In this document: positions 6,401 through 12,400 of the stretch, piece after piece
Layout: each line of letters begins with the position of its first letter
Position numbering within the stretch: the first letter of the stretch is position 1
Assembly (NCBI RefSeq): GCF_964340395.1
Contig: NC_135569.1
Span: 16,384,519-16,448,518 of the forward strand
DNA from: Glandiceps talaboti
Taxonomy: Eukaryota; Hemichordata; Enteropneusta; Spengelidae
Direction: 5' to 3'
DNA length: 64,000 bases
The notes under the pieces: model-generated
Told to the model about the DNA's origin: nothing
The model's database searches: none
What the model saw: the letters and a program-made list of their open reading frames with translations, nothing else
Translations under genes and position numbers: made by a program

Positions 6401-9400
6401 TAATGTTCCTTTATTTGGTTTATCTAAAATTGGTTCAAGTTCCTTTAACTGCTTCCATTTTCTCGGGTAGGATCATCAAAGTGTTCTATTGAGTCTGATG
6501 TATACAAATTTAATAGGGTGATAACACATACAGTGAGGGGTACTTACAGGGACTGGTAGAATTACATACAGTGAGGGGTACTTACAGGGACTGGTAGAAT
6601 TACATACAGTGAGGGGTACTTATAGGGACTGGTAGAATTACATACAGTGAGGGGTACTTACAGGGACTGGTAGAATCACATACAGTGAGGGGTACTTACA
6701 GGGACTGATAGAATCACATACAGTGAGGGGTACTTACAGGGACTGGTAGAATTACATACAGTGAGGCGTACTTACAGGGACTGATAGAATCACATACAGT
6801 GAGGGGTACTTACAGGGACTGATAGAATCACATACAGTGAGGGGTACTTACAGGGACTGATAGAATCACATACAGTGAGGGGTACTTACAGGGACTGGTA
6901 GAATTACATATAGTGAGGGGTACTTACAGGGACTGGTAGAATTACATATAGTGAGGGGTACTTACAGGGACTGATAGAATCACATACAGTGAGGGGTATT
7001 ACAGGGACTGGTAGAATCACATACAGTGAGGGGTACTTATAGGGACTGGTAGAATTACATACAGTGAGGGGTACTTACAGGGACTGGTAGAATTACATAT
7101 AGTGAGGGGTACTTACAGGGACTGGTAGAATTACATATAGTGAGGGGTACTTACAGGGACTGATAGAATCACATACAGTGAGGGGTATTACAGGGACTGG
7201 TAGAATCACATACAGTGAGGGGTACTTACAGGGACTGGTAGAATTACATACAGTGAGGGGTACTTACAGGGACTGATAGAATCACATACAGTGAGGGGTA
7301 CTTACAGGGACTGATAGAATTACATACAGTGAGGGGTACTTACAGGGACTGGTAGAATCACATACAGTGAGAGGTACTTACAGGGACTGGTAGAATCACA
7401 TACAGTGAGGGGTACTTACAGGGAGTGATACAATCACATACAGTGAGGGGTACTTACAGGGACTGGTAGAATCACATACAGTGAGGGGTATTACAGGGAC
7501 TGATAGAATCACATACAGTGAGGGGTACTTACAGGGACTCGTAGAATCACATACAGTGAGGGGTACTTACAGGGACTGGTAGAATCACATATAGTGAGGG
7601 GTACTTACAGGGACTCGTAGAATCACATACAGTGAGGGGTACTTACAGGGACTGATACAATCACATATAGTGAGGGGTACTTACAGGGACTGATAGAATC
7701 ACATACAGTGAGGGGTACTTACAGGGACTGATAGAATCACATACAGTGAGGGGTACTTACAGGGACTGATAGAATGACATACAGTGAGGGGTACTTACAG
7801 GGACTGATAGAATCACATACAGTGAGGGGTACTTACAGGGACTGATAGAATGACATACAGTGAGGGGTACTTACAGGGACTGATAGAATGACATACAGTG
7901 AGGGGTACTTACAGGGACTGATAGAATCACATACAGTGAGGGGTACTTACAGGGACTGATAGAATCACATACAGTGAGGGGTACTTACAGGGACTGATAG
8001 AATCACATACAATGTACAGTGAGGGGTACTTACAGGGACTGATAGAATCACATACAGTGAGGGGTACTTACAGGGACTGATAGAATCACATACAGTGAGG
8101 GGTACTTACAGGGACTGGTAGAATTACATACAGTGAGGGGTACTTACAGGGACTGGTAGAATTACATACAGTGAGGGGTACTTACAGGGACTGATAGAAT
8201 CACATACAATGAGGGGTACTTACAGGGACTGGTAGAATTATATACAGTGAGGGGTATTACAGGGACTGATAGAATCACATACAATGAGGGGTACTTACAG
8301 GGACTGATAGAATTACATACAGTGAGGGGTACTTACAGGGACTGATAGAATCACATACAATGAGGGGTACTTACAGGGACTGGTAGAATTATATACAGTG
8401 AGGGGTATTACAGGGACTGATAGAATCACATACAATGAGGGGTACTTACAGGGACTGATAGAATTACATACAGTAAGGCGTACTTACAGGGACTGATAGA
8501 ATCACATACAGTGAGGGGTATTACAGGGACTGGTAGAATTACATACAGTGAGGGGTACTTACAGGGACTGATAGAATCACATACAATGTACAGTAAGGCG
8601 TACTTACAGGGACTGATAGAATCACATACAGTGAGGGGTATTACAGGGACTGGTAGAATAACATACAGTGAGGGGTACTTACAGGGACTGATAGAATCAC
8701 ATACAGTGAGGGGTACTTACAGGGACTGATAGAATTACATACAGTGAGGGGTACTTACAGGGACTGATAGAATCACATACAGTGAGGGGTACTTACAGGG
8801 ACTGGTAGAATTACATACAGTGAGGGGTACTTATAGGGACTGGTAGAATTACATACAGTGAGGGGTACTTACAGGGACTGGTAGAATCACATACAATGTA
8901 CAGTGAGGGGTACTTACAGGGACTGGTAGAATCACATACAGTGAGGGGTACTTACAGGGACTGGTAGAATTACATACAGTGAGGGGTACTTACAGGGACT
9001 GATAGAATCACATACAGTGAGGGGTACTTACAGGGACTGGTAGAATCACATACAGTGAGGGGTACTTACAGGGACTGGTAGAATTACATACAGTGAGGGG
9101 TACTTACAGGGACTGGTAGAATCACATACAGTGAGGCGTACTTACAGGGACTGATAGACTCACATACAGTGAGGGGTACTTACAGGGACTGGTAGAATTA
9201 CATACAGTGAGGGGTACTTACAGGGACTGGTAGAATCACATACAGTGAGGGGTACTTACAGGGACTGGTAGAATTACATACAGTGAGGGGTACTTACAGG
9301 GACTGGTAGAATCACATATAGTGAGGGGTACTTACAGGGACTGGTAGAATCACATATAGTGAGGGGTACTTACAGGGACTGATAGAATTACATACAGTGA

Positions 9401-12400
9401 GGGGTACTTACAGGGACTGATAGAATCACATATAGTGAGGCGTACTTACAGGGACTGGTAGAATTACATACAGTGAGGGGTACTTACAGGGACTGATAGA
9501 ATCACATATAGTGAGGCGTACTTACAGGGACTGGTAGAATTACATACAGTGAGGGGTACTTACAGGGACTGATAGAATCACATACAATGAGGGGTACTTA
9601 CAGGGACTGGTAGAATTATATACAGTGAGGGGTATTACAGGGACTGATAGAATCACATACAATGAGGGGTACTTACAGGGACTGATAGAATTACATACAG
9701 TGAGGGGTACTTACAGGGACTGATAGAATCACATACAATGAGGGGTACTTACAGGGACTGGTAGAATTATATACAGTGAGGGGTATTACAGGGACTGATA
9801 GAATCACATACAATGAGGGGTACTTACAGGGACTGATAGAATTACATACAGTAAGGCGTACTTACAGGGACTGATAGAATCACATACAGTGAGGGGTATT
9901 ACAGGGACTGGTAGAATTACATACAGTGAGGGGTACTTACAGGGACTGATAGAATCACATACAATGTACAGTAAGGCGTACTTACAGGGACTGATAGAAT
10001 CACATACAGTGAGGGGTATTACAGGGACTGGTAGAATAACATACAGTGAGGGGTACTTACAGGGACTGATAGAATCACATACAGTGAGGGGTACTTACAG
10101 GGACTGATAGAATTACATACAGTGAGGGGTACTTACAGGGACTGATAGAATCACATATAGTGAGGCGTACTTACAGGGACTGGTAGAATTACATACAGTG
10201 AGGGGTACTTACAGGGACTGATAGAATCACATATAGTGAGGCGTACTTACAGGGACTGGTAGAATTACATACAGTGAGGGGTACTTACAGGGACTGATAG
10301 AATCACATACAATGAGGGGTACTTACAGGGACTGGTAGAATTATATACAGTGAGGGGTATTACAGGGACTGATAGAATCACATACAATGAGGGGTACTTA
10401 CAGGGACTGATAGAATTACATACAGTGAGGGGTACTTACAGGGACTGATAGAATCACATACAATGAGGGGTACTTACAGGGACTGGTAGAATTATATACA
10501 GTGAGGGGTATTACAGGGACTGATAGAATCACATACAATGAGGGGTACTTATAGGGACTGGTAGAATTACATACAGTGAGGGGTACTTACAGGGACTGGT
10601 AGAATTACATACAGTGAGGGGTACTTATAGGGACTGGTAGAATTACATACAGTGAGGGGTACTTACAGGGACTGGTAGAATCACATACAATGTACAGTGA
10701 GGGGTACTTACAGGGACTGGTAGAATCACATACAGTGAGGGGTACTTACAGGGACTGGTAGAATTACATACAGTGAGGGGTACTTACAGGGACTGATAGA
10801 ATCACATACAGTGAGGGGTACTTACAGGGACTGGTAGAATCACATACAGTGAGGGGTACTTACAGGGACTGGTAGAATTACATACAGTGAGGGGTACTTA
10901 CAGGGACTGGTAGAATCACATACAGTGAGGCGTACTTACAGGGACTGATAGACTCACATACAGTGAGGGGTACTTACAGGGACTAGTAGAATTACATACA
11001 GTGAGGGGTACTTACAGGGACTGGTAGAATCACATACAGTGAGGGGTACTTACAGGGACTGGTAGAATTACATACAGTGAGGGGTACTTACAGGGACTGG
11101 TAGAATCACATATAGTGAGGGGTACTTACAGGGACTGGTAGAATCACATATAGTGAGGGGTACTTACAGGGACTGATAGAATTACATACAGTGAGGGGTA
11201 CTTACAGGGACTGATAGAATCACATATAGTGAGGCGTACTTACAGGGACTGGTAGAATTACATACAGTGAGGGGTACTTACAGGGACTGATAGAATCACA
11301 TATAGTGAGGCGTACTTACAGGGACTGGTAGAATTACATACAGTGAGGGGTACTTACAGGGACTGATAGAATTATATACAGTGAATGGTACACAGGGACT
11401 GGTAGAATCACATACAATGTACAGTAAGGCGTACTTACAGGGACTGATAGAATCACATACAGTGAGGGGTATTACAGGGACTGGTAGAATAACATACAGT
11501 GAATGGTACACAGGGACTGATAGAATCACATACAATGTACAGTAAGGCGTACTTACAGGGACTGATAGAATCACATACAGTGAGGGGTATTACAGGGACT
11601 GGTAGAATTACATACAGTGAATGGTACACAGGGACTGATAGAATCACATACAATGTACAGTAAGGCGTACTTACAGGGACTGATAGAATCACATACAGTG
11701 AGGGGTACTTACACGGACTGGTAGAATCACATACAGTGAGGGGTACTTACAGGGACTGGTAGAATCACATACAGTGAGGGGTACTTACAGGGACTGGTAG
11801 AATCACATACAGTGAGGGGTACTTACAGGGACTGGTAGAATCACATACAGTAAGGCGTACTTACAGGGACTGATAGACTCACATACAGTGAGGGGTACTT
11901 ACAGGGACTGGTAGAATTACATACAATGTACAGTGAGGGGTACTTACAGGGACTGGTAGAATCACATACAGTGAGGGGTACTTACAGGGACTGGTAGAAT
12001 CACATACAGTGAGGGGTACTTACAGGGACTGGTAGAATCACATACAGTGAGGGGTACTTACAGGGACTGGTAGAATCACATCTGGATTGCCAGCCAAGTC
12101 TGCAATGTGACGATACAATGGCACTCCCTTCTCTGCAGCACCAGCCTTACATACAGCAAGAGAAACTCCTAGGATAGCATTGGCACCAAGTTTAGCTGTA
12201 AAAATAGTCATCATATCAACATACTGATTTCAACAAGGTTCTGAATGCCACTCATCTATCAATAGGCTGTACATAAAGAAATACACACTCTTACTCCAAG
12301 GATAACAATAGCATCATGTCTAGCTTAAAAATAGTCAATTACCATAGGGATTGAAGTAAGCAGCAGTCCAGGGCACTTTATTTTCTACTAAACATTGTAT

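Follow-up and report, generated by a model that had tools for sequence, protein, structure and literature searches.

A 38-bp minisatellite of exon 5 donor junction copies in an enolase gene of the hemichordate Glandiceps talaboti

The stretch of DNA analysed here, called the window, comprises 64,000 nucleotides of Glandiceps talaboti, an acorn worm (Hemichordata, Enteropneusta, Spengelidae). It carries on the minus strand an enolase gene, which occupies positions 240..18259 from the start codon to exon 11. The 11 exons were placed with the use of P0001, a protein of 434 aa bearing the NCBI name 'alpha-enolase-like [Glandiceps talaboti]' and itself a predicted protein. Exact matches placed 355 residues out of 1-357; residues 104 and 290, skipped by the block search, have their codons interrupted by introns 4 and 10, and they agree with P0001 by eye. 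For exon 11 the end point carries an uncertainty of 1-2 nt, and the 3' remainder of the gene lies beyond the window. The neighbouring gene, on the plus strand, matches the G. talaboti protein 'solute carrier family 35 member F6-like' (SLC35F6). A second, shorter SLC35F6-like record (P0122, 217 aa) is found on another G. talaboti contig of 24.6 Mb with 99% identity over 56% of the query, and it may represent either part of the gene recently copied or an assembly issue.

Exon 5 of the enolase gene (12062..12195, minus strand, 134 nt) encodes residues 105-148 of P0001, ends with ...DVILPVP, is bordered by AG and GT splice dinucleotides and belongs to the Pfam domain Enolase_N. Its own splice donor, CCT/GTAAGT, lies at 12056..12061 (minus strand), where P0001 joins P148 to A149. 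Exon 6 (6087..6162, minus strand), also placed with P0001, is preceded by the acceptor CTGTAG and starts with AFNVINGG, and the predicted protein joins the two exons exactly as the use of the first donor would. Between them lies intron 5 (6163..12061, minus strand), whose length of 5899 nt, 94% of it a tandem array, compares with 595-1847 nt in the nine other enolase introns measured. Intron 3 contains a 191-aa open frame (13640-14212, minus strand) which by eye resembles the terminal part of a LINE-type reverse transcriptase; a Pfam search with this frame gave no match.

Structure of the array

The array in intron 5 is a 38-bp minisatellite on the minus strand at 6525..12081, for which Tandem Repeats Finder gave a period of 38, 145.1 copies and 91% matches. 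Wrap-around alignment on the transcript strand resolved it, in the assembled sequence, into 145 units and one partial unit, a 5-bp ATGTG remnant. The repeated unit is made up precisely of the 20 nt that close exon 5 and the 18 nt that open intron 5, which bears out the proposal of a sequence-only reading of this DNA that about 145 units reproduce the exon 5 donor junction in these proportions. Unit 1 (12044..12081, minus strand) is half coding and half intron: it starts inside exon 5, whose final 20 nt it takes in, and is the exon end itself, so that the array adjoins the genuine boundary without a gap, as the same reading had proposed. Two details of that reading are corrected: the far end of the array is at 6525, and the length of exon 5 is 134 nt. 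The first wholly intronic unit (12006..12043, minus strand) is identical to unit 1 and holds the TGA that would be read with any later donor. At the far end the last unit is followed by the ATGTG remnant (6525..6529, minus strand), with which unit 1 also opens, and then by unrelated sequence; on the plus strand CACAT is thus found at both ends.

The units are similar, and 37 distinct sequences occur among them. A length of exactly 38 nt is found in 117 of the 145 and the sequence of the exon copy in 20, unit 1 counted; the commonest sequence (29 units) is one base off unit 1 and in the exon would turn, by eye, a proline into a serine codon. Of the 145 units, 122 have an unaltered donor core GTAAGT, 18 retain GT alone and 5 have AT, and the 9-mer of the first donor is common to 121, the first itself counted. 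An acceptor-like signal 5 nt before the donor had been proposed, and indeed GTAAGT, a branch-point-like CTYAY (CTCAC) and an AG in that position occur all together in 121 of the 145 units.

That the array is real as sequence follows from a junction-copy test in which the 40-base sequence of each junction was searched for within 3 kb: donor 5 scored 40/40, and 300 random sites outside arrays scored 22.4 on average and 33 at most. It is the only one of 21 enolase junctions tested to have a nearby copy; at the other 20, of which five were positioned 1-3 nt off, no copy was found within 3 kb and the scores were 20-23.

Origin and growth of the array

The first duplication probably arose by slippage between the ATGTG of the exon end and the ATGTG which now follows the last unit; the single-copy ancestor would have been a 38-bp piece flanked by ATGTG repeats. 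This corresponds to the model of Haber and Louis, in which, as summarised in PMC3389668, direct repeats of 5-10 bp seed minisatellites. Short remnants (up to 8 bp) were also looked for in all 13 arrays of the window (at least 4 copies, period at least 19) and were noted in five of them against 2.8 expected (P 0.12), which is not convincing, and a window-wide signature of this kind was dropped. Since such remnants are not significantly enriched over the 13 arrays, it is mainly the enolase array that points, weakly, to an ATGTG seed.

Later growth would have proceeded by unequal exchange of unit blocks. Identical blocks of 640, 469 and 416 bases recur within the array at distances of 1378, 725 and 1794 bp respectively, and such repeated multi-unit blocks are consistent with block exchange. 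Each in-register exchange between units would rebuild an intact exon end and donor, and so the array could lengthen or shorten without breaking the gene. Of the nine units nearest the exon, counting its own, eight agree with it at every one of the 38 columns, and this stretch holds 6 of the 20 perfect units (hypergeometric p 0.0002, to be read with caution because units are copies of each other). This clustering suggests that the exon end either takes part in recent turnover or sits at a young end of the array. Because the states that the exon carries are common ones in the array, shielding of the exon from change does not follow.

Related structures

Minisatellite-like tandem copies of exon-intron boundaries have been described in amphioxus as 'mirages' in Adh3 and in the globins BflGb6 and BflGb9; troponin C is named as a further case and PGBD5 as a similar one, and many of the mirage units contain AG/GT splice signals (PMC3087553, PMC3902484). 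According to the passages cited, splicing in these genes is regular, instability of length and even somatic instability are present, and the BflGb6 mirage comprises 6 and 3 units in two haplotypes (PMC3087553, PMC3902484). The enolase array resembles the mirages in being made of tandem boundary copies, in being contiguous with the genuine boundary and in having AG/GT signals in its units (121 of 145). It differs in its host, a hemichordate in place of a cephalochordate, and in its copy number, which is 145 against 2-7 in the amphioxus cases with counts known from these passages. Moreover, instability and splicing were examined in amphioxus, whereas the enolase array is known here from the sequence of one haplotype.

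A minisatellite of splice donors was reportedly described in the human IFI6 (6-16) gene by Turri, Cuin and Porter in 1995. It is like the enolase array in that its units offer splice donors (GTAAGT in 122 of 145 enolase units). The IFI6 unit is 12 nt long and in frame, so that the protein is lengthened, in contrast to the 38-nt enolase unit, where each of the 144 later donor positions would bring a stop within the first unit added. Two downstream minisatellite units of IFI6 serve as donors and give three mRNAs (PMC4526556). Human duplicated genes carry internal tandem repeats at their exon-intron boundaries, with 30-bp units and 4 repeats on average, which are stated to alter splicing (PMC2812944). 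These too are minisatellites at boundaries, but they form novel introns, whereas the enolase array fills an existing one. A further parallel is intron gain by tandem duplication, in which a duplication crossing a boundary copies ready-made splice signals (PMC4974935). The enolase array shares such a duplication over an intron-exon boundary with its splice signals, yet there a new intron is made and here the copies sit inside an intron.

The sequence-only reading had called the array unusual, which is only partly right because the mirages and the IFI6 donor minisatellite are of the same kind. Among the top listings of the open-licence literature no published array of this kind was seen in a hemichordate or in an enolase. 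The novelty lies in the host phylum (within the literature searched), in the gene that carries the array and in the number of copies; the kind itself is already known. The mirage type, described in amphioxus, is extended to a hemichordate, with an array far larger than the amphioxus cases with known copy numbers (145 units against 2-7). It offers a natural competition test: with donors of equal sequence strength, what makes splicing take the first one, if it does so? The enolase gene is presumably busy, and its 122 intact GTAAGT units out of 145 suit this question of donor choice.

Donor choice and explanations of the array

The reading-frame computation shows that from any of the 144 later donor positions translation would run into one and the same TGA, which lies in the first unit added; a stop in that unit, TGA or TAA, had been predicted. 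Of these positions, 121 keep GTAAGT. The accompanying claim that only the first donor keeps the frame is correct in effect, since 144 of 144 later positions reach the stop, but not arithmetically, three units being 114 nt, a multiple of three. Splicing from donor 1 makes exon 5 134 nt long; the four donors that follow would extend it to 172, 210, 248 and 293 nt. These lengths are all ordinary and exon size alone therefore gives the first donor no protection. A search by prediction for local RNA structure hiding the later donors found none: the first donor has an unpaired probability of 0.031, the others average 0.063 (sd 0.047), and the first is, if anything, less open. The first donor is thus without advantage in its own sequence or in predicted openness. 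Since neither exon size nor predicted structure favours it, its earlier synthesis and its pairing with the exon 5 acceptor remain as the presumed reasons for which it would mostly win. Transcripts from later donors would be removed by nonsense-mediated decay.

It is considered highly probable that the array is a mirage minisatellite, probably seeded by slippage at ATGTG, probably grown by unequal exchange and tolerated because splicing likely stays at the donor of exon 5 itself. Most likely the array arose from errors in DNA copying and does no harm; a regulatory role is possible. Of the three options put forward by the sequence-only reading, a splice-site sink, a source of NMD isoforms and neutrality, the last fits best: variable positions are as frequent in the donor as in the rest of the unit, and one junction-spanning array per window is near random expectation. 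Conservation of the donor as a sign of function was not borne out by the variable positions, which make up 5 of 9 in the donor 9-mer and 13 of 29 in the rest of the unit (Fisher p 0.71). Variant cells amount to 27/1305 (2.1%) in the donor, 142/2465 (5.8%) in the other exonic part and 55/1740 (3.2%) in the other intronic part, and their lower share at the donor could hint at constraint, although the copies are not independent. The pattern is read as neutral drift with copying, though the result is compatible with weak constraint as well. Points that count against the mirage explanation are that the use of the first donor is taken from a predicted protein and from other species, that downstream donors are used in IFI6, that the first donor has no advantage in sequence or openness, that variant cells are fewer at the donor and that short remnants are not significantly enriched.

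The two repeat units that act as downstream donors in human IFI6 make leakage to later donors realistic, and the array might accordingly be a source of unproductive transcripts, in which leaky later donors would give stop-containing mRNAs and array length would set the enolase level. The common early stop, the 121 later donors with GTAAGT, the ordinary size of exon 5 with the next donors and the IFI6 precedent all speak for this. Nevertheless, it is judged unlikely, as donor positions are variable as often as the rest of the unit, chance alone is likely to bring a stop after a few codons, and the amphioxus mirages are reported without disturbance of splicing. A splicing rheostat, in which the number of units, shifted by unequal exchange, would set the share of enolase pre-mRNA lost to stop-containing transcripts, is given still less credence; if it were true, more than 100 identical donors would compete with the true one in a housekeeping gene. 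Titration of U1 by the array would be unlikely, given the numbers in a cell.

It is very improbable that the array, or its length, is an assembly artefact. Assembly is difficult for long arrays whose blocks are nearly identical, and the copy number of the lancelet PGBD5 repeat differs between assemblies (PMC3902484, in the passage cited). Against this, the array consists of 37 distinct unit sequences with a repeated block order, the gene continues in both flanks, and the contig that bears the matching protein record measures 19.4 Mb, which makes a long-read assembly probable.

Stepwise shortening of the intron by splicing between units before removal of the outer intron is the least credible of all, for although donor, branch-point-like CTCAC and CAG acceptor signals stand together in 121 of 145 units, an intron between neighbouring units would be 33 nt, probably below the minimum intron length, so units would have to be skipped, and steps from the exon 5 donor would bring a stop after one or two of them. 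Each use of the AG after that donor would leave the 5-nt TCCCT, and the frame would be kept after three steps. Removal of units wholly within the intron, which is possible, would leave no scar in the mRNA.

Minisatellites of the window

The 13 arrays of the window cover 28.7% of its length, and random seeding would give 0.22-0.37 junction-spanning arrays per window (21 or 30 junctions, the unit of the enolase array itself counted). With minisatellites so dense, the placement of one of them across a junction is less surprising. One of the 13 touches a junction over the 31 junctions of enolase and SLC35F6, and none of the other 12 touches any of these, so that no further mirage was found at them. 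The nearest misses are the arrays 44480-44637 and 49675-52564, at 53 and 111 nt from a junction respectively. The latter is a 29-bp minisatellite of about 100 units with 97% matches, which begins 111 nt past an SLC35F6 donor without touching it. A 48-bp array in an SLC35F6 intron (45391-46386) has a consensus unit with ACTGTAAGTATA, which is donor-like on the strand of that gene; its nearest junction is 524 nt off. Another 48-bp minisatellite (56719-59498, about 57 units) is open as a reading frame of 931 aa, which is probably not coding, because a period divisible by 3 permits an open frame. The arrays 26562-26942 and 27711-27968 have a common 42-bp consensus unit and lie about 0.8 kb apart, as if a single array had been split or copied.
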